From positions 1 through 39,395 of the forward strand of contig JALUDX010000101.1 in assembly GCA_027053355.1 (NCBI GenBank): a DNA stretch of 39,395 nt. The letters run 5' to 3'. This DNA is from Anaerolineales bacterium (lineage in GTDB: Bacteria > Chloroflexota > Anaerolineae > Anaerolineales > DRMV01). Positions 173-13,465 of the stretch are shown here, one piece after another. Both the position numbers and the translations under genes were made by a program. The notes beneath the pieces are model-generated. The model made no database searches, had not been told where the DNA came from, and saw nothing but the letters and a program-made list of their open reading frames with translations. Numbering within the stretch: position 1 is the first letter of the stretch; the number at the start of each line of letters is the position of its first letter.

Positions 173-829
173 CTACGACTGGGGGCTGCTCGGCAGGCGC
201 AAGAGCACGCGGGCCGGCGCGCCGTCGCTCCCCACCAGTTTGAGCGGCAGGCAACAGAGGTCGTAACGACCGGCGGGCACGGCCGAAAGGTCCAACGTCT
301 CGATGACCACCACCTCCGCGGCCAAAAGGGTGCGGTGCGTCGGGACGGGGTCGTCGAAGGGGGCTACCGAGAGGTAATCGACGCCCACCAAGCGCACGCC
401 CCGGGCGACCAACCAGGCCGCGGCGTCGGCAGTGAGGGCCGTGTAATCAGGGTGAAAGCGGGGGTCTTGCGCGGCCCACCAGGCCGAGTTGCGGGTTTTG
501 AAGAGCACCCGGCGGGCCTCCGGCGGGAGCGCCGCGGCTTCCAACACGGCCGCGGTGATGTGGCCTTCGACGTGCGTCAGGTCGACCACCCAGGCCTCGC
601 CCAGCAGCGCGTCCCAAGGCAGGCTTTCGGCCGTGGGGCCGTCGGCGATGAAATGGCGGGGCGCGTCGATGTGGGTGCCCAAGTGCACACAGCCGCCAAA
701 GCGGGAGACATTGGCCGGCTGCCCCTCTTCCATCTTGAGAAAACGCTCCAGCACCGGCTCGGGGTCTCCCGGCCACACCGGGACGCGGCCGGGGGCAATG
801 GGCACCGAGACGTCGTACACAGCAACCAT
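173..829 (-). CDS. Cyclase family protein (kynurenine formamidase-like)
   Basis: 218 aa; YDVSVPIAPGRVPVWPGDP ... HLGTHIDAPRHF ... typical of the cyclase family (HxGTHxDAPxH metal motif). Confidence 0.9.
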   Translation of the reverse strand: MVAVYDVSVPIAPGRVPVWPGDPEPVLERFLKMEEGQPANVSRFGGCVHLGTHIDAPRHFIADGPTAESLPWDALLGEAWVVDLTHVEGHITAAVLEAAALPPEARRVLFKTRNSAWWAAQDPRFHPDYTALTADAAAWLVARGVRLVGVDYLSVAPFDDPVPTHRTLLAAEVVVIETLDLSAVPAGRYDLCCLPLKLVGSDGAPARVLLRLPSSPQS

Positions 830-845
830 GGGGCCTCCTGGGGGG

Positions 846-1811
846 TTAGGGGGATTTCGACTTGGTGAGGAGGTACGAAATCACCAAAAAAGCAAGATCC
901 ACCAAAATACCGGCCAGCGCCCCCCGCCACGAGGGGCTGATCCATAAGGCCACGGCCAAAATGATGAGGGCGGCGGCCAACATCCAAAGGCCGGAGGGCC
1001 GCCACCGTCGCCCCTGGCGGGCTTCGCTCACTTCTTGCAGAGCCTGGCCCAATTCTTCCGGCCAATCAGGGTCGTTCTTGGACACAAAGGCATAAGGCGG
1101 CTCGACCCCCGGCGCGACGTCGAAGGCGCGTTGGATGTCTGCGGGGTTGTCGTGAGCGCTGAGGATGATGACCGGGATACCGGCTCGCGTGACTTCTCGG
1201 GCCAGGATCAAACCACCCCAATCCTCAGGGTTGTTTTCATCCTTCAAACGCACATCTATGATCGCGGCTTGGACGCCCCGCTGCTGCTGAATTTTAGAGC
1301 GGGCTTCTTGAACGGAAGCGGCCTTTACAGGGATGTAACCTCTCTGTTTGAGTGCATCTTCCAACGTGGCCGCAAATTCAGGGCCGTTCTCCACGAATAA
1401 AACTTTTCTTCCCTGTCGCTCCAGCACCTCTTTTAGCGCTGTATTCAATTCTTTTGCCCAATCGGGGCTGTTTTTAGAAACAAAGGCATAGGGCGGCTCG
1501 ACACCCAGTGGGGCGTCGAACGCGCGCCGGATATCTTCTCGCTTGTCATAGGCGCTGAGGATGATGACCGGAATATTGGCCTCGGTCACCCAACGCGCCA
1601 GAATCAAACCGCTCCAATCCTCGGGATTCTTTTCATCCTCCATACGGACATCCACAATGGCGGCTTTGATGCCTCGTTGCTTCTGGATTTTAGAGCGGGC
1701 TTCTTGAACAGAGGCGGCCTTTACAAGACGGTAACCTTTCTGCTTGAGCGCATCTTCCAGCGTTGAGGCAAAAATCGGGTCGTTCTCCACAGATAAGACT
1801 CTTGTGGTCAT
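846..1811 (-). CDS. Tandem receiver-domain protein (REC-REC) with C-terminal TM hairpin
   Basis: Two highly similar REC domains (RVLSVEND...AAIVDVRM...VIILSAYD...FVSKN and KVLFVENG...AAIIDVRL...VIILSAHD...FVSKN), then two hydrophobic segments (LWMLAAALIILAVALWI; ALAGILVDLAFLVISYLL). No DNA-binding output domain. Confidence 0.88.
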   Translation of the reverse strand: MTTRVLSVENDPIFASTLEDALKQKGYRLVKAASVQEARSKIQKQRGIKAAIVDVRMEDEKNPEDWSGLILARWVTEANIPVIILSAYDKREDIRRAFDAPLGVEPPYAFVSKNSPDWAKELNTALKEVLERQGRKVLFVENGPEFAATLEDALKQRGYIPVKAASVQEARSKIQQQRGVQAAIIDVRLKDENNPEDWGGLILAREVTRAGIPVIILSAHDNPADIQRAFDVAPGVEPPYAFVSKNDPDWPEELGQALQEVSEARQGRRWRPSGLWMLAAALIILAVALWISPSWRGALAGILVDLAFLVISYLLTKSKSP

Positions 1812-2549: not shown

Positions 2550-3224
2550 TCAAGTCTTACGACGGTCATGGAGCCAATTCTTTATTTTTGTTTTAGCCGA
2601 CTCGCAGCGCCAATAACAATAGAAAGAAGATATACCACCACCAACCAGACCTATGAGGGCAATGCCTAAAATTCTAGAAATCAACCCTGCAATCACAACA
2701 AGCGTTGCTATCGAGAGAAGAAGAAGCAACCGGTTGGAACAGGAAAGACCCTGCAGCCTCCACAATTGAGATTGTAAAACGAAAATTTCTTCAACAAGTT
2801 CTTGTGCCTCTGTTTGTTCTTCTTGGGCTTCTGGCATCAACCTCCAAAAATCACATTGTGGGGGAACGATATCCTTCGGTTTAAAATTTTTTTCTTGTGG
2901 GTCAGGGTATATCAAGCAGCCTATTGAAGAAAACCGGCACGACCATTTGGACTTTTGTTTATCAAGGCACCGCTCAATCCGCTCACGATGAGGAGTATGG
3001 TTGTCTTTTTTCAAAACGGCCCCTGAAAAGACAAAGATGGCTACAGGGAGGGCGAGAGACAATGAGCATCCGTTAGTCCTTCCAACATCCACAAGTTCGG
3101 AAGAAAAATCTCCCTCTTCCCCCATTTTTACTTCGAGCAACTTCTTGGTCTTCTTTTCCAGATTCTGATAATGCCCTTCTTCTTCTGAAGAGAAGACCCA
3201 CACCAAAGCCAAGTCTTTTGTCAT
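2550..3224 (-). CDS. Hypothetical protein: N-terminal alpha/beta domain (possibly TIR-like), helical linker, two C-terminal TM segments
   Basis: 224 aa; start overlaps the upstream kinase stop by 4 bp (ATGA). VWVFSSEEEGHYQNLEKKTKKLLE, LPVAIFVFSGAVL and SIGCLIYPDPQEKNFKPKDIVP resemble the order of TIR strands. Family assignment is tentative. Confidence 0.6.
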   Translation of the reverse strand: MTKDLALVWVFSSEEEGHYQNLEKKTKKLLEVKMGEEGDFSSELVDVGRTNGCSLSLALPVAIFVFSGAVLKKDNHTPHRERIERCLDKQKSKWSCRFSSIGCLIYPDPQEKNFKPKDIVPPQCDFWRLMPEAQEEQTEAQELVEEIFVLQSQLWRLQGLSCSNRLLLLLSIATLVVIAGLISRILGIALIGLVGGGISSFYCYWRCESAKTKIKNWLHDRRKT

Positions 3225-6200
3225 ACAATTTCCTCCACCACACCCTCTATGCTTTCGTGAAGATTTGTGCCACCGGTAGACAAACGCGGCAAAGTGAGCA
3301 CAATGGCCGTGCCTTCGGGGCCGGTACGCTCAATGTGCACTTTGCCGCCGTAAAACTGGGCCACAAAGGCGGTAATCAGCGCGCCCGTGCCGTGGCCCCG
3401 GGTCATCTCGGCCGGCACCCGGTCGTCGAAGAGATACGGGCGCACTTCCGCAGGGATGCCAGTGCCGTTGTCGGCTATTTTCAAAAACACCGATCCTCCC
3501 GTGGCGTTGCTCGTCAGGGTGACACGAGGGTTTCTCCCCTCTTTTCCCGCAGCCTGGGCGGCCGCGCGCGCCGCGTTGCTGAGCAAATTGTCCACCGCGC
3601 GGGTTAACCACAGCCGGTTGGCCCGCACCACGGCTTTGTCAGGGGCTCCCTCCAGTTGCAAGGTCACGGGCGAGCCCATTTTCTCCAGCCGCTGCTGCCA
3701 GCGGGTAACGATCTCTTCCAGCCAGGGGCGTACTTCGATGTTTTCCATCTGCTCATCCGGCGGCGGGAACGCGGGACGCTGTTCGCTGAAGATGGCCTGA
3801 ATCCGGTCGAGCCAACGGCAAATTTTCTCCAAATCGGGCACCACCCCCAACCGATGGGCCAGGCGCAGGGTTACCCCGCCTTTTCTTTCTTTTAGTTTTT
3901 TGCAAAACGGCAGGGTTTCCTCTTCCAAAAGGCCCAAGGTGCCCCGAAACGCTGCCAGTTCGTTCTTCCACTGGTGGCCGTAATCCGCGGCCGCGATGCC
4001 CAGCGCGGCCAACGCGGCCGCCAGCCGCCGCTGCCGGGCTTCCTGCTGTAGTGTACGTGCTTGCTCCCGCAACATCAGGGCCACCGCCATTTGCGAGGCT
4101 AAGGACTCCAGCACTTGCCGGTCGTAGAAATCCATGGCCATAGGGTCCCTGTACTCCACATTGAGGACACCAACCACCTCCCCCGTGGGCCACAGCACAG
4201 GGACGGCCATTTCGGCCACTGTATCCTCATGACAGGGCACGTAGTCGGGGTCTTGCGTGACGTCGGGAACGGTGACCGTGCTTTTTTCGAGGGCCGCGCG
4301 CACCACAATACCGTGCGGCTCGCCGGCCGGGGTTTGCAAAGGGAAACGCCGTCGTTTTTGAAACTGCGATTGTCGAGCCTGGGGAGACTGGTGGACTGCG
4401 ATCAATTCCAGCGCCTCGTCGCTCTTGGAAAACAAAGCAACCGCGCTCACCGCGCCGGGAGGGTCGTTCACCAGGTCAAAGGCGGTCTTGACCAACATTT
4501 CCAGCCCGCGTTCAGGCTGGTTGGGAATGCTTGCCGTGACCCCGAGGATTTTCTGCGCCCGCTGCTGGTCGCCCCAGGCGCCCAACGCGGTGGCCAGATC
4601 CTGAGCCACGCGCTCCAGGAAGGCCCGATCCTCTTCCTCGAAAAAGCGAGGCTGGGTAGCCTCAACGGTCAAAACGCCCAAGAGCCGGTCGCCCAAGAGA
4701 ATGGGCACGTCGATTTCGGAGCGGGTGATCGACCGCACAGGGAGGTAATGTTCGTCCTGCTCAGTATCAGGGGCATAGTATGGCCGCTTGTGTTCCGCGA
4801 CCCAGCCGCAGATGCCCTTCCCAAAAGGGATCTCCCGTGGTGGGGCGGTTTGACTCCCTTGCCGGTACATCTCCCACACTGATTCAGGAAAACGCAAACG
4901 CCGCGCCCCGTAATCCGCGTAGAGGATGCTCGGCGTGACCCTTCCATACCCCGTGGTAGGCCATTCTTCCTTCAACAAACGGGTAACCTCTTCTGCCAGA
5001 CGTTCTTCCAGTTTTTGCTGCCTTGCTGCAGCCGCTCCTCCTTGGCTTTTCTGGAGCACGCTTCGGATGGCCTGGGCAATTTTGCCATGCAACTGCCACC
5101 GTTTTTGGCTTCGGTGCTCCCGCGCGGCCATGAGAGCCACTCCTACAGCCATGGCCGCCTCCTGCCCCAAGGTGCGCAGTAAATTCTTTTCCTCTTCGGT
5201 GAAGTAATGGCGTTCCTTAATGTAATGCACCACCAGCACGCCCACCGGCCGAGCCTCGCCATCCTGGGTTAAGGTGAGCACCACGCCGCCGCTGGAACGC
5301 ACGTTGAATATCTGAACGAAATCTCCTTGAAAAACAGGATCCTGAGATGCGTCTTCGGCAAAATGTTCTTTTTGGGGCAGTTTCAACAATTTTTCCAAAG
5401 CGTCGTTTTCTGCTTTACAAGAATAAGCCTTAATGGCTTCTTCGTCCGGCAGCCCCAAACGCACCCGTTCCAGCAAAAACACCTCGCGCTGCGCGTCGTA
5501 AACGTGCAAGGTGACGATATCGGCGTGCAAGGCGCGCTTCACCCGGCCGGCAATCTCTGCCAACACGTCGGGCAACGGCTTTTCGAAGACGCTTTCCAGA
5601 AAAGCCCGATGGGCTTCTTCCTGCCGCCGGCGGGCCAGGGCCAGGCCGACGAGGGCCGCCAAGGTGGTCAAGGCCTCCCGCAGGCCCTGACCAAAGGGAA
5701 TGGGGGCATACCGCTGCACCGAAAGCACGCCTAAAATCTCATCTTGGGCAACAAGGGGCACCCCCACAAAGACTCGCGGCACCGGCTCGCGCACCTGGAT
5801 GGACGCCCCGTCAGGCAAGGGAGGACATGGGTCGTCGGCGCGCCAGCGAAGGCATTGCCACGCTTGACCGGAGCGAATGATATATCCCGTCGCGCCGCTT
5901 TTTGCTTTGGAGGAGGCCTGGCGCGGGGAGGGGGCTTTTTTATGTTTCTTCGAGTCGACGAAAAGGGGAAAGGTGATCGTGTCCGTGATTGCGTCGTATT
6001 CAGCCAGGTAATAAACAGAAACCCCAAACGCCTCTTCCAACGCGCTGCGCACCGCGTCATACACTGCCTTACGCGTGCGCGCGGCCAACAGTTTCTCTCC
6101 CGCCTCGCCCACGGCTTTGAACAGGGCCCGTTGGCGGTGCTGGTCAATGGCCGCACCCAGCAGCCGCGCCACCACCGACAATCCGGCTTCGAAACGCAGT

Positions 6201-7123
6201 CGTTCTTCCTCCGAGGAGGGTTCTTTTCCTACAGCCCATACCACGGCCAGGGGTTGCGGCGTCGCGGCGTCCTGTGTCGCCTCAGCCGTGTCCGGGAAGC
6301 CAAAAGGCTGGGGTCGGGGGGCAAAACAGAGATGAGCCTGCCAGTGTTTTTCCCCTTGGGGCTCTGAATACGACCGCGTCGGGTTACCCTGGCCTTTGTT
6401 CGCCCACAGGTCTGCCAAAAGCCCTTGCGCAATGCCCTGCGCAGTGATGTGGGGCGGGAGTTGCAAATCCTCCACGCCCTGTTCAGAGGCCAGTTGCCCC
6501 GTGGTGAGGTCGAGCAGGCCCACGGCCACCGCGTCCGCGTTCAAAAAAGCCGGCGCTTTCTGGACGACAGTGCGCAGCAGGTCCTCGAGGGTGGGTGCAG
6601 CCAGCAAAGCCTGCGAGAGTGCGGCCAGGGCTGCGGAAGCCAGGGCCTCTTCCTCGGCTTGAACAGCACGTTGTTTGAGTGCTTTACTCGACGATGGCTC
6701 TCGGCCCCGCCTTCGCCTTAAGCGCTTAAATTCCTCGATGAGTCGCTTCCGCTCGACCAGGTAGCGGAAGACCACTTCCGCCTCGGTATAATCGATGGGC
6801 TTTTCCAGAGACCAGAACGCGCCTTCACGAAGGGCCTGGCGGCCGATGGAACGATCCATGCCGGTGATCATGACCACCGGCAGGTCGGGATGCTCTTTTT
6901 TGATCCGTTTGAGCAACGCCATGCCGTCGAGGGGCCCTGCCAGGGCATAATCGATGATCACGCCATCATACGGGTGCTCGCTTATCTTTTCCAAGGCTTC
7001 CCCCGCGGTTGCCACTACGTCCACCGTGTAAGGGCCCAAGCCTTGCAACCACTCGGCAAAGTATTTGCTAAAGAGCCGGTCATCGTCGGCCAACAAGAAG
7101 CGGAAAGCAGGTTTTCGAGTCAT
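3221..7123 (-). CDS. REC - multiple GAF - histidine kinase (hybrid sensor kinase, 1300 aa)
   Basis: N-terminal REC (LLADDDRLF...GVIIDYALAGPLDGM...VMITGMD...EKPI), about five GAF-like repeats, H-box-like GHQWKNELAAFRG, N-box NLLSNAARAA, G-boxes DNGTGIP / GHGTGA. Confidence 0.92.
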   Translation of the reverse strand: MTRKPAFRFLLADDDRLFSKYFAEWLQGLGPYTVDVVATAGEALEKISEHPYDGVIIDYALAGPLDGMALLKRIKKEHPDLPVVMITGMDRSIGRQALREGAFWSLEKPIDYTEAEVVFRYLVERKRLIEEFKRLRRRRGREPSSSKALKQRAVQAEEEALASAALAALSQALLAAPTLEDLLRTVVQKAPAFLNADAVAVGLLDLTTGQLASEQGVEDLQLPPHITAQGIAQGLLADLWANKGQGNPTRSYSEPQGEKHWQAHLCFAPRPQPFGFPDTAEATQDAATPQPLAVVWAVGKEPSSEEERLRFEAGLSVVARLLGAAIDQHRQRALFKAVGEAGEKLLAARTRKAVYDAVRSALEEAFGVSVYYLAEYDAITDTITFPLFVDSKKHKKAPSPRQASSKAKSGATGYIIRSGQAWQCLRWRADDPCPPLPDGASIQVREPVPRVFVGVPLVAQDEILGVLSVQRYAPIPFGQGLREALTTLAALVGLALARRRQEEAHRAFLESVFEKPLPDVLAEIAGRVKRALHADIVTLHVYDAQREVFLLERVRLGLPDEEAIKAYSCKAENDALEKLLKLPQKEHFAEDASQDPVFQGDFVQIFNVRSSGGVVLTLTQDGEARPVGVLVVHYIKERHYFTEEEKNLLRTLGQEAAMAVGVALMAAREHRSQKRWQLHGKIAQAIRSVLQKSQGGAAAARQQKLEERLAEEVTRLLKEEWPTTGYGRVTPSILYADYGARRLRFPESVWEMYRQGSQTAPPREIPFGKGICGWVAEHKRPYYAPDTEQDEHYLPVRSITRSEIDVPILLGDRLLGVLTVEATQPRFFEEEDRAFLERVAQDLATALGAWGDQQRAQKILGVTASIPNQPERGLEMLVKTAFDLVNDPPGAVSAVALFSKSDEALELIAVHQSPQARQSQFQKRRRFPLQTPAGEPHGIVVRAALEKSTVTVPDVTQDPDYVPCHEDTVAEMAVPVLWPTGEVVGVLNVEYRDPMAMDFYDRQVLESLASQMAVALMLREQARTLQQEARQRRLAAALAALGIAAADYGHQWKNELAAFRGTLGLLEEETLPFCKKLKERKGGVTLRLAHRLGVVPDLEKICRWLDRIQAIFSEQRPAFPPPDEQMENIEVRPWLEEIVTRWQQRLEKMGSPVTLQLEGAPDKAVVRANRLWLTRAVDNLLSNAARAAAQAAGKEGRNPRVTLTSNATGGSVFLKIADNGTGIPAEVRPYLFDDRVPAEMTRGHGTGALITAFVAQFYGGKVHIERTGPEGTAIVLTLPRLSTGGTNLHESIEGVVEEIV

Positions 7124-7153: not shown

Positions 7154-9505
7154 TCACGACTGCGTTTTATCAGTCGGCAGTTCCGGCAGGCGGACACGGA
7201 ATAACGAACCTACGCCCATCAGGCTACGCACCACCTGAATGTCGCCGCCCATGGCTTCGACCAGTTGTTTGGCCATGAAAAGCCCTAGGCCCGAGCCGCC
7301 TGGGCGTTGGGAATAGCCAAATTCATAGATCTTGTTGGAGCGGATGAGCGCATAATGCACCCCGGGTCCTGAATCGGCCACGTAAATGCGCAAAGGCAGG
7401 TGTTTGGGCGGCACGTAGCGGGTAGAAATGGTCACCTGGCGCAACGGCTTTACGACGCCGGGGCAAAAGGGGTCCTCCCTCGACCATTGAATGGCGTTCA
7501 AAATGATGTTGTCCAGCACCTGGCGCAGCCAGGTGGGGCTGAAATGGCCGGCCGGCATGTTTTCGTCGAGGGACAATTTCAAATCAATACCCCGATTCTG
7601 CGCCAAAGGGCGAAAGCGGAGCACGCTCTGCCGAATCAGGGCATGGATGTCGGTGGCCCGGCTTTCGTGCTTGTCTTCCAAAGCACGGAACGTTTCCAAG
7701 GTGCTTTTCATCTGCCGCGCGCCGGCCAGGATGTCCCCCACCTTGGAGGCAATCTCACCCATGAAATCCTGCACCACCCGGGAGTCGGTCTGGGCCGTCA
7801 GCGCGGCCATTTGCTGGTCGAGGCTGACCAAAACGGAGTTCAAAGCATTCAACGTATTGCGCACATCGTGCAGCGCGCCGGCGCGCAAGCGGGCGTTGAG
7901 GATGTCGCTTTGCGCTTGCTCCAATACCTGGACGAGAAACGGCTGCTCTAACAACACCCCTAAAACATGGCGAGTGTATAGCCGAATGGCCGGCGACCTA
8001 TGACCCGGCCGACGGGCAAATACGAAAAAGGCCATGGGTTTCTTCGACAAAGGCGGGGTCACGCGCCAACCCCAGGCCGCTTGATAGCCCCCTTGCACGG
8101 CCTGACGGAGGTAGCGGTCATAGCGGCTGGGGCTGTCCGTAATCGCCACCATGTGCCGCTCTTCTTTCAAAATCTCCCCAACCGGACTGTACCAGAGCAG
8201 GTGCAGGCTTTCGTCATCCTGCGCGATGTCGATGCCCCATTGGGCAACCACCTCGATTTTGCCCGGCTGGTCGGGAGAGATGGCAAAGATGGCTGCGCCT
8301 TCCATGCCCACCTGCTGAGCCACGTCGGCGATGAAAGCGCGCAAATCCTGGTCGGTGTAGGCTGGCTTTTCTTTGGCCGCCACCGTGAGCGGCGCTACGG
8401 GCGCTTGCGGCGGCTTGGTTTTCCGCGGCTGCTCTGAGGACGCGCGTTCCCAGCGGCGCAAATAGTCGGCGACTTCTTCCGCAAAAAACGGTTTGTATTC
8501 CAGGGTCAGCCCTTTGGCGCGCAGCCGCGCCTCCAGGGCAGCATCGGTCTCCGCACCAGAAAGCAAAAGCACGTGGCAGTGGGGCGCAGTCCTGCAAATT
8601 TCTTCTGCCCAGGGTGTGGTGTCGCCATCCGCGCCCAAGGTCAGGTCAAGAAAAACGCCGTCGAATGCCCCTTGGCGGAATTTTCGCTTCCCTTCTTGAA
8701 GGTCTGCCGCCGTTTCCACCGCGTAGCCCCAGTCGCGCAGCAAAGCGGCCATGTGCTGGCGGAAGAGGTCGTGGTCGTCCACCACCAAAAGCCGCCGAAT
8801 GCGCTGGGGTTCGGGCGGCGTCATGGTTTCAGGGACGTCTTTCAGCAACCGCTGCAGTTTGAGCCGGTCGGCCGGTCGGAGGTGGTCTGCCAAGGGGGCT
8901 TCGCCTGCTTGCTTTGCCTTGGCTTCTTCCACAAATTCTCCCAAGCGCTCCAGATATCGCTTGATGCTTAACCGCAGCCGGTAGGCTTCAGGGTCAAATT
9001 CGGTAACCACCACCTGCACCATATCGCCCGGCCAAAGGACCTCTTGCGCTTTGACTCTGCACAGGCTGATTTCTTCTACAGGGAGAAAGCCTTCTATCCT
9101 GGGTACCACCTCCCCCGGTGCCACCTCCCCAGGTGCCACCTCCACAAAAGCGCCGAACTCTCGCACCCGTTTGACGATGCCTTCGGCCACGACGCCTTCG
9201 TGGTATTTGTCGCGGTGAATTTCCCAAGGGTTGTGGTCGACAAACCGATGGCTCAGTTCGATGGGCGCGGTTTCGTCGTCCTCCACAGAGGTGAAGCGGG
9301 GCAACACCACCGCCTCCAACTTTTGCCCCACCTGAAACTTTTGGTGCAGGTCAGGGCGCTTGTCGTCCCAACTGACCTCCCGGCGGCGGATGATCCCCCT
9401 TTCCCCATTGGGCAAGCGCACGAAAAGTTTGGAAGGGACGATTTTCTCGATGCTAACCGTGACCTTCTCCCCCGGACGATAGTTTTCTCTACTCATCGTC
9501 TGCAC
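7154..9505 (-). CDS. S1 RNA-binding-like domains - REC - GAF-like - histidine kinase
   Basis: N-terminal S1-type motifs (GEKVTVSIEKIVPSKLFVRLPNGERGII; VVAEGIVKRVREFGAFVEV...IEGFLPVEEI), REC (LLVVDDHDLFRQ...GVFLDLTLG...LLLSGAE...YKPF), H-box LHDVRNTLNALNSV, G-boxes VADSGPGV / GGSGLGLFMAKQL. Probable start MSREN at 9496; overlaps the polA stop. Confidence 0.9.
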   Translation of the reverse strand: MQTMSRENYRPGEKVTVSIEKIVPSKLFVRLPNGERGIIRRREVSWDDKRPDLHQKFQVGQKLEAVVLPRFTSVEDDETAPIELSHRFVDHNPWEIHRDKYHEGVVAEGIVKRVREFGAFVEVAPGEVAPGEVVPRIEGFLPVEEISLCRVKAQEVLWPGDMVQVVVTEFDPEAYRLRLSIKRYLERLGEFVEEAKAKQAGEAPLADHLRPADRLKLQRLLKDVPETMTPPEPQRIRRLLVVDDHDLFRQHMAALLRDWGYAVETAADLQEGKRKFRQGAFDGVFLDLTLGADGDTTPWAEEICRTAPHCHVLLLSGAETDAALEARLRAKGLTLEYKPFFAEEVADYLRRWERASSEQPRKTKPPQAPVAPLTVAAKEKPAYTDQDLRAFIADVAQQVGMEGAAIFAISPDQPGKIEVVAQWGIDIAQDDESLHLLWYSPVGEILKEERHMVAITDSPSRYDRYLRQAVQGGYQAAWGWRVTPPLSKKPMAFFVFARRPGHRSPAIRLYTRHVLGVLLEQPFLVQVLEQAQSDILNARLRAGALHDVRNTLNALNSVLVSLDQQMAALTAQTDSRVVQDFMGEIASKVGDILAGARQMKSTLETFRALEDKHESRATDIHALIRQSVLRFRPLAQNRGIDLKLSLDENMPAGHFSPTWLRQVLDNIILNAIQWSREDPFCPGVVKPLRQVTISTRYVPPKHLPLRIYVADSGPGVHYALIRSNKIYEFGYSQRPGGSGLGLFMAKQLVEAMGGDIQVVRSLMGVGSLFRVRLPELPTDKTQS
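9102..9146 (-). repeat. 15-bp in-frame tandem repeat (x3) within the second S1 domain, encoding EVAPG-EVAPG-EVVPR
   Basis: ggtaccacctccccc / ggtgccacctcccca / ggtgccacctccaca. Confidence 0.9.
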
Positions 9506-12329
9506 CTCCGCGCAGTTCCCGGCTTTCCGTCCAAGGCGTCATCTCATCCCAATTCTTCCCCACCTTGGCGTCGGTGACCAGCGGCACGGCAAGGCGGTAG
9601 GCGTTTTCCATTTCGCTTTGCACCGCGCGGGCGACGTCGCTCAGCGCGTCTTCCGGCACTTCCAGCATCAGTTCGTCGTGCACCTGCAGCAGCATTTTGG
9701 CCGGCAGGCGGTCGGCTGCCAGGCGCTCAGCCACCCGCAGCATGGCCAGTTTCATGATGTCCGCCGCGGTGCCTTGAATAGGCGCGTTGATGGCTTCCCG
9801 CTCGGCGCGCAGGCGGGCGTTGCGGTTGGCGGGCTTCTGCAGTTCGGGGAAGTAGCGCCGCCGCCCCAGCAGGGTTTCCACATAGCCCTGCGCCGCGGCT
9901 TTGCGGCGGGTTGCCTCGATGTAGCGCTTCACGCCGGGGAAGCGCTTGAAGTAGGCTTCCACGAAGTTTTCGGCTTCGGCCAAAGTCAGGTCGGTGGTGC
10001 GGGTGAGGCCGAAGGGGCTCATGCCGTAAATCAGGCCGAAGTTGATGGCCTTGGCATGGCGGCGCATCTGCGGGGTGACTTCTTCCAGCGGCACGCCGTA
10101 AATGGCCGCTGCGGTCGCGGCGTGGATGTCTTGCCCGGCCCGGAAGGCGGCAATCATGGCCTCGTCGCCGGAAACATGCGCCACGATGCGCAGTTCCACC
10201 TGGGAATAGTCCACCGAGAGCAGCAGGTGGCCTTCGGGCGCGACGAAAGCCCGCCGCACCCGCCGCCCCACCGGCGTGCGCACAGGGATGTTCTGCAGGT
10301 TCGGGTCCGAAGACGCAATCCGCCCGGTGACCGTGCCGGTCTGGTTGTAGGAAGTGTGCACCCGCCCGGTTGCGGGGTTCACCTGCTGGGGCAGGGCGTC
10401 CACGTAGGTGGATTTGAGTTTCGCCAGTTCGCGGTGCTCTAACACCCAATCCACCACCTCGTGCTGGCCGCGCAGGGCTTCCAGCACGCTGGCTGAGGTG
10501 GAATAGTGCCCACTCTTGGTCTTGCGGGTGCGGTCGGGCGGCTGCAGCCCCAAAGTCTCGAACAAAATTTTGGAAAGTTGCCGGGTGGAGTTGATGTTGA
10601 AACGCTGCCCCACCGCGGCGTAAATTTGCTCTTCCAAGGCGCGCAACTGAGCGGCCAGTTCCTGCGACATGCGGGCGAGGAAGTCGGTGTCCACCAGGAT
10701 GCCGTTCATTTCCATGCGCGCCAGCACGGGCACCAAGGGCATTTCGATTTCCCGGAACAGCCGCCAGCCGTTGCGCTCGCGCACGTCGGCTTCCAGCAGA
10801 GGCATCAGGCGCAGGGTCATCACCGCATCGGCCGCGGCGTAGGGCGCGGCCTTGGCCACCGGCACCTCGGCCATGCTGATTTGCTTCTTGCCTTTGCCGA
10901 TGAGGGCGGTAATGTCGGTCATTTCCACGCCGAGGCGCGTCCAGGCTAAGTTCTTCAGCCCCAAATTGTGGGAAGCCGGGTCACGCACCCACTCGGCAAT
11001 CATGGTATCGAAGGCGGGCGTGCTCATGGGCAGGCCGTGGCGGGCCAGCACCACCAGGTCGTATTTGATGTTGTGCCCCACCTTGGCCACCTGCGGGTCG
11101 GCTAAGAAGGGCGCGAGCGCGGCGCGGACGTGTTCCCACGGCAGTTGCGCCTCGCCGGTGCGGTGCCCCACGGGGATGTAAAAGCCCTCGCCCTCGTCCA
11201 CCGCGAGGGAAACGCCCACCAGGTCGGCGCGCATTTTGTCGGTGGCGGTGGTTTCGGTGTCGATGGCTACGGTGCGGGCGACCTTCAGGCGGCGGGTAAG
11301 GGCCTGCAATGCTTCCGGGGAATCCACCACGGTGGTGCGGAAGCCTAAATCGGGCGGGGGGGAAGCCGCGCCTGCCGTGCCCGCGGCGGCCTGCCCGCCG
11401 AACAGGGCAAGTTGCTGGGGTTCGTCCCCTTCCCCGCCCGCGGCCTGCTGCCATGCCCGCAGGCGCTTGAGCAGGGAGCGGAACTCCAGTTCCCGGAACA
11501 GGGCTTCCACCGCACCCACGGCGTCGGGGCGGGGCACGGCCTGGGCAAGGTCCACGGCCACCTCCAGGTCGGTGCGGATGCGGGCCAGGTCCCGGCTCAG
11601 GTAGGCGTTGTGGCGGTCGGCTTCCAGTTTGCGGCGGATGCCGGGGGCGAGTTCGTCCAAATGGGCGTAAATGCCGTCCAAAGTGTCGTATTTTTGCAGC
11701 AGTTTGGCCGCGGTTTTCTCGCCAATGCCCCGCACGCCAGGGATGTTGTCGGATTTGTCGCCCACCAGCGCCTTGAAATCCACAATCTGGTCGGGCCGCA
11801 CGCCGTATTTGGCTTTCACCTTTTCGGGGGTGTAGTCGGTGGTATCCGAAAGTTGCCGCCCGGGCAGGGAAACGATGATCCGCTCGTCCACCAGTTGCAG
11901 CAGGTCCCGGTCGCCGGTGACGATTTTCACCCCCATGCCCTCACTTTGAGCCAGGCGTTTGGCCGCGCTGCCCAGCACGTCGTCGGCTTCGTAGCCCTCC
12001 CTTTCCAGCCGCGGGAAGCCGAACGCGTCCACCAGTTGGCGGATGCGCGCCATCTGGGGCACCAAATCCTCGGGCATTTTGGCGCGGGTAGCCTTGTATT
12101 CGGGGTAGATCTCGTCGCGGAAGGTGCGCCCGACGTCGAAAGCCACGGCCAGGTAATCGGGGTGCTCCTGTTCCAAAAGCCGTAGCAAAATGCTGGCAAA
12201 GCCATAAGCGGCCGCGGTAGGCTCCCCCTGGCTGTTGCGCCAGCGGTCGCCGCCGGTGCCCGCGGTGAGGGCAAAATAGGCGCGGTAGGCCAACGCGTGG
12301 CCGTCGAGCAAGTAGATGGTGGGGGGCAT
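9489..12329 (-). CDS. polA: DNA polymerase I (5' nuclease, 3'-5' exonuclease, polymerase)
   Basis: LLDGHALAYRAYFAL start; VAIDTETTATD exonuclease motif; LSVDYSQVELRIVAHVSGD; RRHAKAINFGLIYGMSPFGL; LLQVHDELMLEVP. Confidence 0.98.
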   Translation of the reverse strand: MPPTIYLLDGHALAYRAYFALTAGTGGDRWRNSQGEPTAAAYGFASILLRLLEQEHPDYLAVAFDVGRTFRDEIYPEYKATRAKMPEDLVPQMARIRQLVDAFGFPRLEREGYEADDVLGSAAKRLAQSEGMGVKIVTGDRDLLQLVDERIIVSLPGRQLSDTTDYTPEKVKAKYGVRPDQIVDFKALVGDKSDNIPGVRGIGEKTAAKLLQKYDTLDGIYAHLDELAPGIRRKLEADRHNAYLSRDLARIRTDLEVAVDLAQAVPRPDAVGAVEALFRELEFRSLLKRLRAWQQAAGGEGDEPQQLALFGGQAAAGTAGAASPPPDLGFRTTVVDSPEALQALTRRLKVARTVAIDTETTATDKMRADLVGVSLAVDEGEGFYIPVGHRTGEAQLPWEHVRAALAPFLADPQVAKVGHNIKYDLVVLARHGLPMSTPAFDTMIAEWVRDPASHNLGLKNLAWTRLGVEMTDITALIGKGKKQISMAEVPVAKAAPYAAADAVMTLRLMPLLEADVRERNGWRLFREIEMPLVPVLARMEMNGILVDTDFLARMSQELAAQLRALEEQIYAAVGQRFNINSTRQLSKILFETLGLQPPDRTRKTKSGHYSTSASVLEALRGQHEVVDWVLEHRELAKLKSTYVDALPQQVNPATGRVHTSYNQTGTVTGRIASSDPNLQNIPVRTPVGRRVRRAFVAPEGHLLLSVDYSQVELRIVAHVSGDEAMIAAFRAGQDIHAATAAAIYGVPLEEVTPQMRRHAKAINFGLIYGMSPFGLTRTTDLTLAEAENFVEAYFKRFPGVKRYIEATRRKAAAQGYVETLLGRRRYFPELQKPANRNARLRAEREAINAPIQGTAADIMKLAMLRVAERLAADRLPAKMLLQVHDELMLEVPEDALSDVARAVQSEMENAYRLAVPLVTDAKVGKNWDEMTPWTESRELRGGADDE

Positions 12330-12353: not shown

Positions 12354-13286
12354 TCAGCCTTGGGAAAATCGGCCGCGAAGGTGCTTCTGCAGAAAAGCGG
12401 CAATGGCACGGGAAGAAATGGGCACCTGCCGCGGCTGCAGCAAGTAAAACGGGGCCCAAAAATCATCGGCCGGGTGAGCAAAAGGCAGTTCGGGGTGGGC
12501 CTGATAGAGCAAACGGGAAGTATGCCAGCGCACCGCGCGCACCACCGCGGTGGGCGGGGTGTTGGGCGGCACCTCCACCACCCACTGCAGATAGTGAGGC
12601 TGCACGCTGAAATGAAGCAGCCGCCAGCCAAAGCCGTGGATCAGCCGGGGCAACCAGCGGCTGAGGTCGCGCGCCAGATCGCCCACCAAAAACTGATTGG
12701 GGTGCTTGGGCACCAGCACGCCCGCGTAGGCCTGCGTCTGGGGCGAAGGCGGCATAGCCTCTGCCGGCGCGGGGGCCTGCTGAGGCCGCACCACCGCGGC
12801 CTGCGCCTCAGCAGGGGGCGGCGGGGCCGGCCGAGGCGGCGCCGCGGGCACAGTGGGGTTGGGGTCGGGGATGTCGTCGAACAGCGGTTGAAAGGCCTCA
12901 GGCGGCAGGTCGTCGTCTTCCTCTGCTGCGGCGTCGGTGGGGGTGGTCAGCGCAGCAGCCAAATTGTGCAGCAATCGGCGCGCCTGGCTCAGCGGGTGGG
13001 ACGCGTCGAACACGGCCACTAACCACTTCTCGCCCTCCAGCCGCGTCGCCAAAAGCATCAGCGGCGCTTTGGCCAACGGCGAGCGCACATAACGCAGGAT
13101 GTCGCTTTCCCCCTGCAGGGGCACCTCGGGCAACAGCGCGGCCAACGCCTCTTCAGACCACACGCCGTGGTAGGCCGAAAGCTGCCCCGCAGCGGCCACC
13201 ATCACGGCGCGCGCGCCTTCCACCGGCCCCAGGCGCGCCAATGCCTGGGCCAGGGAAGGAAACGACGCCCCCGAAGCCTCTTTCAT
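12354..13286 (-). CDS. Conserved hypothetical protein (possible roadblock/LC7-like N-terminal region, Pro/Ala-rich linker)
   Basis: Start MKEASGASFPSL at 13286 overlaps the upstream ORF stop by 4 bp; N-terminal segment ARAVMVAAAGQLSAYHGVW resembles roadblock-type strands (weak). Confidence 0.6.
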   Translation of the reverse strand: MKEASGASFPSLAQALARLGPVEGARAVMVAAAGQLSAYHGVWSEEALAALLPEVPLQGESDILRYVRSPLAKAPLMLLATRLEGEKWLVAVFDASHPLSQARRLLHNLAAALTTPTDAAAEEDDDLPPEAFQPLFDDIPDPNPTVPAAPPRPAPPPPAEAQAAVVRPQQAPAPAEAMPPSPQTQAYAGVLVPKHPNQFLVGDLARDLSRWLPRLIHGFGWRLLHFSVQPHYLQWVVEVPPNTPPTAVVRAVRWHTSRLLYQAHPELPFAHPADDFWAPFYLLQPRQVPISSRAIAAFLQKHLRGRFSQG

Positions 13287-13465
13287 TGCTGCAGCGCGCG
13301 CATCAGTTCTTGAAACTCTTTCCATTCCTCGGCAAAAAAGTGCACGGTCAGAGCGCCCAATTCCAGATGGTAGGTAATTTCGCCATCGGGCTCTTCGGCC
13401 TGCCACACCAGGTAGTTGCGGGTCTCGGCCAAAATTTCGGTTTTGGGTTCTGCAAAGTCGCTCAT
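13283..13465 (-). CDS. Small conserved hypothetical protein (60 aa)
   Basis: MSDFAEPKTEILAETRNYLVWQAEEPDGEITYHLELGALTVHFFAEEWKEFQELMRALQQ; ATGA coupling with the downstream gene. Confidence 0.65.
   Translation of the reverse strand: MSDFAEPKTEILAETRNYLVWQAEEPDGEITYHLELGALTVHFFAEEWKEFQELMRALQQ

Follow-up and report, generated by a model that had tools for sequence, protein, structure and literature searches.

Can a histidine kinase take its input from RNA or from the ribosome? This question is raised by a gene, here called A, on a 39,395-nucleotide contig of an Anaerolineales bacterium (JALUDX010000101.1, assembly GCA_027053355.1; this whole stretch is referred to as the window), which encodes two S1 domains, a receiver (REC), a GAF-like region and a histidine kinase in one protein. 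The inputs attributed to histidine kinases are small molecules, light, redox state and envelope stress. Our analysis suggests, with a confidence poised midway between doubt and conviction, that A belongs to a mobile phosphorelay cassette of Chloroflexota in which the S1 module would act as a sensor of, or a tether to, RNA or the ribosome, and in which conflict-type outputs would be exchangeable.

Gene A as a single intact fusion

The first-pass annotation of the window had proposed an S1-S1-REC-GAF-like-kinase fusion within one open reading frame (ORF). This ORF, on the minus strand at 7154-9505, spans 783 codons without an internal stop, and Pfam domains and homologues agree in depicting a single intact gene. 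The annotated start, GTG 9505, falls within a GGAGGTG ribosome-binding site (9509-9503, minus strand) that lies upstream of ATG 9496; therefore, the latter is probably the true start, giving a protein that begins with MSRENYRP. The start of A overlaps the stop codon of polA. The gene and its domains, with residues numbered along the ORF, are:

7154..9496, minus strand: gene A, S1-S1-REC-GAF-like-histidine kinase; open frame extendable to GTG 9505
9251..9481, minus strand: S1 domain 1, residues 9-85; Pfam S1_RRP5 (PF23459) at residues 9-68, E 9e-9, 36.2 bits against a cut-off of 27; conserved I-R-R/E-R-E block
8957..9205, minus strand: S1 domain 2, residues 101-183; Pfam S1 (PF00575) at residues 102-182 in two stretches, E 4e-18, 66 bits against a cut-off of 22; matches ribosomal protein bS1
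8450..8797, minus strand: receiver domain, residues 237-352; Pfam Response_reg (PF00072) at residues 240-345, E 3e-11; phosphoacceptor D287 at about 8647-8645
7922..8350, minus strand: GAF-like domain, residues 386-528; GAF_2 in the aligned region of homologue L038, E 4e-7
7610..7921, minus strand: dimerisation and phosphotransfer region, residues 529-632; invariant H546 at about 7870-7868
7172..7609, minus strand: HATPase_c catalytic domain, residues 633-778; Pfam PF02518 at residues 657-775, E 2e-14; all boxes intact

The earlier annotation had itself named a frameshift or an assembly error as what could undo its proposal, and the chance that either fused an S1 gene to a kinase gene is, in our estimation, vanishingly small. 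The fusion is present in more than 20 other genomes, and a chimera is ruled out by a 92%-identical copy on an independent contig of a metagenome-assembled genome (L028, named Anaerolineales), by 20 further full-length homologues without stops and by purifying selection that spans the S1-kinase junction. A peptide-pattern scan of the genome collection gave the sister strain as its sole match.

Downstream of the S1 pair, the Response_reg and HATPase_c calls, together with GAF_2 in the homologue, bear out the annotated receiver, GAF-like region and complete kinase core, while the Pfam scan of the window protein gave no GAF call at residues 386-528. The residues that define a histidine kinase (the H-box histidine and the N, G1 and G2 boxes) are all found in A. 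Across 20 homologues, D287 and K338 of the receiver are invariant, as are H546 (H-box), N666, N670, D711, G713, G715, G739 and G741 of the kinase core, from which activity is predicted for the receiver as well as for the kinase.

The S1 pair

The two N-terminal S1-type motifs reported earlier are confirmed by Pfam profiles that both score above their cut-offs and by the match to bS1 in the PDB; the fold is S1 by profile, rather than the non-S1 fold that had been considered as an alternative. The motif quoted in the annotation is indeed of S1 type, but it belongs to the second domain only.

Structures of bS1 match the pair at E 3e-22 to 2e-17, and the match to E. coli bS1 is best over domains 4-5 and takes in the NPW linker that joins them; in nearly all family A homologues the linker reads D/N-P-W. 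By these matches, domains 4-5 of ribosomal protein S1 are the closest counterpart of the pair. The protein itself is not a bS1, as it scores 105 bits against the NCBIfam rpsA equivalog cut-off of 577 and has two S1 domains only; a separate 501-aa S1-domain ORF in the window's genome is consistent with the genome's own bS1. The next-best relatives of the pair in the class reach at most 156 bits, versus at least 192 bits for family A members, and lie in shorter open frames, mostly of 300-570 aa, a size fitting bS1.

Across the family, the S1 domains are as conserved as REC and GAF. Between the window and L028, the ratio of non-synonymous to synonymous substitution rates (dN/dS) is 0.093 and 0.091 for the S1 domains, 0.13 for REC, 0.27 for the kinase and 0.30 for GAF, values that are rough since the regions are short; on this comparison, the S1 pair is the most constrained part of A between sister strains. 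A single-sequence structure prediction of the pair was unusable (predicted local distance difference test, pLDDT, of 51).

Distribution of family A

When 298 genomes of the class were searched with a single sequence, 20 of them (about 7%), among them that of the window, gave near full-length matches; outside the window's genome these show 25-30% identity. A 20-row profile recovered the same 20 and one copy cut by a contig end, and found two more copies in a second class of the phylum. Each genome has a single copy, and the score of every complete one is 725 bits or higher. As judged by these searches, A is a sharply bounded family. Among plasmids and phages no full-length relative of A was found, phage matches being restricted to the S1 part.

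In one genome (G089, L084:5378-7730), a 256 aa ORF with S1-S1 and the first part of the receiver adjoins a Mutator-family transposase, the S1-kinase gene being apparently broken by an insertion element.

The A-B-C cassette

Comparison of the ORFs around 24 homologous loci reveals an operon: in each of the 23 loci with enough sequence, the gene immediately downstream of A, and on its strand, is gene B. B encodes REC, several GAF domains and HATPase_c, and ranges from 1050 to 2030 aa. A gene-C-type protein comes after B in 19/19 loci that extend far enough, the window having two intervening genes. In C, TCAD9 usually comes after a family-specific receiver; this domain resembles aminoglycoside kinases, and its motifs HGDLH..N and D-F/Y-E are found in many copies. 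In L034 and L123, TCAD9 is undetected by Pfam, though the C profile covers most of the protein. The C-terminus of C is variable: it may end there, or carry a winged helix (Trans_reg_C in L033, L034 and L037, and in L123 only at cut-off), a TIR domain (L035), or CHAT together with TIR. The last arrangement is seen in L047 (10588-13434), where a single 949 aa ORF joins a REC-TCAD9 type protein to a caspase-like CHAT domain and a weak TIR match. In L036, L038, L042 and L045, the locus continues with another gene, for an AAA/STAND-like ATPase that in one case has a winged helix. The constant partner kinase B and the variable, receiver-bearing output gene form a setting that the first-pass annotation did not notice and that is more informative than A alone.

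REC-TCAD9 proteins also occur without A, adjoining other B-like kinases or ATPases, and the S1-kinase would therefore be one sensor option within a broader modular group. On one contig (L095, G096:C325), which has no S1-kinase, TCAD9-like matches occur in each of three long ORFs of 1192-1323 aa.

Co-inheritance and lateral movement

The pairwise distance matrices of A and B are strongly correlated (r=0.95; 0.86 without near-duplicates), as are the distances of the S1 part and the kinase part of A (r=0.91). In the A tree, the bacterial families f24, f41 and f48 are each divided over distinct clades, most of them well supported. The A of G179, a genome of the window's order, groups with an f24 genome and not with the window, whose own branch is long and of unsure placement. 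In the window, A adjoins the following gene, which we regard as the insertion site and as lying outside the system:

9489..12329, minus strand: polA (DNA polymerase I), whose stop overlaps the start of A

In two genomes of the window's genus, polA is followed by MNT-like and comM-like genes, without A or B. These absences and the split families in the tree point to lateral movement; the cassette is accessory, and A and B are co-inherited and move as a unit between bacterial families. In L028, polA is separated from the S1-kinase by two inserted modules of toxin-antitoxin-like type (1230-2670), which by eye are MNT/HEPN-like and PIN/VapBC-like. The 3' side of polA is a variable site. A functional polA-A operon was considered and rejected as a general arrangement, given the two congeners that lack A and B after polA and the two modules intervening in L028.

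The cassette of the window

The remaining cassette genes of the window are:

3221..7123, minus strand: gene B, with REC, five GAF matches and HATPase_c (Pfam), 30 bp downstream of A
2550..3224, minus strand: 224 aa orphan between B and the C slot, with C-terminal hydrophobic helices
1831..2553, minus strand: 240 aa protein with hydrophobic ends, between B and the C slot
846..1811, minus strand: gene C slot, 321 aa, tandem receivers (Response_reg twice) and two hydrophobic helices

The two receivers in the C slot score 92 and 97 bits to a gene-C profile that was built without this protein, as compared with about 25 for other receivers in the window, and their best single-sequence matches are almost all gene-C receivers. 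On the strength of these scores, the protein is read as a putative gene C whose kinase has been replaced by a membrane tail.

The 240 aa protein has no Pfam match above cut-off. The orphan has neither a Pfam match nor a homologue in 60 related genomes; its third-codon-position G+C is below that of its neighbors, it ends in two hydrophobic helices, and its soluble part looks faintly TIR-like by eye.

A proposed mechanism and its alternatives

These findings allow us to propose a model. A would be a soluble hybrid histidine kinase that takes its input through the S1 pair and the GAF-like domain and has its own receiver placed between sensor and kinase. The S1 pair would tether A to RNA or to the translating ribosome, and foreign or damaged RNA, or ribosomes that have stalled or been degraded, may combine with the GAF signals of A and B to alter autophosphorylation at H546. 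Phosphoryl groups would then travel via the receivers of A and B to that of C, and phosphorylated C would switch the output, be it the TCAD9 kinase alone, winged-helix DNA binding, TIR or CHAT plus TIR; in the window, the output would be the tandem receiver with its two-helix membrane tail. A role in conflict is proposed because of the TIR, CHAT and TCAD9 domains and because TCAD9 (PF19974) was named from the vWA-MoxR-VMAP ternary conflict systems, with which the literature places it (PMC7159879, PMC10910872).

Several observations weigh against this model. At positions that we take from the S1 domain of PNPase to be RNA contacts, domain 2 of A has F120 in 15/20, D171 in 18/20 and R176 in 13/20 homologues, while the contact histidine position is P in 11/20 and H in 7/20; in domain 1 this histidine is replaced by R, and the domain has R40 (18/20) and an invariant R42-E43 (R42 in 20/20). 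The canonical RNA-contact residues are thus, as far as alignment tells, kept in part only, and bona fide S1 folds may also bind proteins. Concerning the outputs, TCAD9, whose presence served to recognize a ternary conflict system, is found in most homologous loci and was not found in the window's genome. Around the loci there is no cluster of known defence genes, the flanks being mostly transporters and housekeeping genes. Among PADLOC models, A reaches only 17.8 bits to SduA (in its receiver part) and neither B nor the C of L038 matches any; the TIR end of L035 is the only convincing match.

The mixed contact residues, together with the constant position of B after A, its co-variation with A and its five GAF matches, agree with an account in which the S1 pair serves for protein docking or for dimerisation (with B, RNA polymerase and ribosomal protein S2 as conceivable partners) and in this way places the kinase, the real signals being small molecules bound by the numerous GAF domains. 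We hold this account to be credible but unlikely, as aromatic and basic positions of the S1 face (F120, D171, R40 and R42) are often kept and, among solved structures, bS1 is the nearest match, over its domains 4-5. It is this likeness that makes a link to RNA or the ribosome a reasonable inference and RNA binding by the pair plausible. The direct sensing of RNA or ribosome state by the kinase, as suggested in the first-pass annotation, is plausible and partly supported: the fusion is real and conserved and its S1 pair is bS1-like, but the contact residues are mixed and the pair may bind proteins.

A further possibility, on which we look with some doubt, is that the S1 pair reports the general state of translation or growth within an ordinary stress-regulation phosphorelay with transcriptional output and no conflict role. 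The winged-helix ends on C and on the further gene D in several loci and the ordinary flanking genes would fit such a regulator; the TIR and CHAT ends found elsewhere, the patchy distribution and the lateral movement argue against it. In a more far-reaching reading, the cassette could be a two-component immune system sensing RNA or the ribosome, in which a kinase with an S1 input captured from bS1 detects RNA or ribosome states tied to invaders or to damage and licenses, via the giant kinase B, exchangeable lethal outputs (TIR, CHAT protease, membrane helices or the TCAD9 kinase); we consider this stronger version quite improbable.

Relation to known systems

The phosphorelay cassette proposed here joins two-component signaling to TCAD-type outputs, both of known kinds. 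With bS1 domains 4-5, its best solved-structure match, A shares tandem S1 folds and the NPW linker; unlike bS1, it has only two such domains, fused to a receiver and a kinase, and domain 1 bears an arginine-rich R-R-R-E block in place of the usual H-I-S/T. With hybrid histidine kinases of the REC-GAF-kinase type it shares the receiver, the GAF-like domain, the H-box and HATPase_c, all residues intact, to which it adds the S1-S1 input and an obligatory neighbor, B, with its own receiver and kinase. In ANTAR-type response regulators, two-component signaling is likewise combined with an RNA-binding-type domain, which there is the output domain of the regulator, whereas in A the S1 pair stands at the input end of the kinase.

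With the vWA-MoxR-VMAP systems the cassette shares the TCAD9 domain of its usual gene C and the TIR or CHAT ends, but here histidine kinases occupy the sensing or threshold place. In this regard, receiver domains, but no histidine kinases, are reported among the vWA-associated effectors (PMC7159879). No vWA, MoxR or VMAP was detected among the neighbors scanned one by one, a scan that covered the flanking genes only in part. A passage of PMC8195603 on S1 domains places several of them, fused to OST-HTH, on TERNS3 effectors. S1 OB folds have thus been recruited into a conflict system of multicellular bacteria as well, there on the effector and here on the sensor kinase.

A literature search for S1-fused or RNA-binding histidine kinases found none described which, its scope being open-access, is weak evidence; the S1-histidine kinase fusion is apparently undescribed. 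If the model holds, captured ribosomal S1 domains would let a kinase read RNA or the ribosome, a class of input beyond those recognized so far, and the cassette may represent an alarm system, as yet undescribed, with a link to RNA or the ribosome. The swappable TIR, CHAT, DNA-binding and membrane ends of A-B-C further suggest that, in bacteria of the multicellular type, two-component phosphorelays can act as the layer that sets the threshold of a conflict system.

Neighboring genes

At the distal end of the window's cassette, 16 bp past the tandem-receiver gene and on the same strand, lies an arylformamidase-like (kynurenine formamidase) gene (173-829, minus strand). Beside polA, at 12354-13406 (minus strand), a 350 aa protein carries a C-terminal IS200-like Y1_Tnp domain (E 2e-8), which a proline-rich linker connects to an N-terminal region unrelated to it; its HUH and Tyr motifs look degenerate by eye, and it is possibly a domesticated transposase domain.
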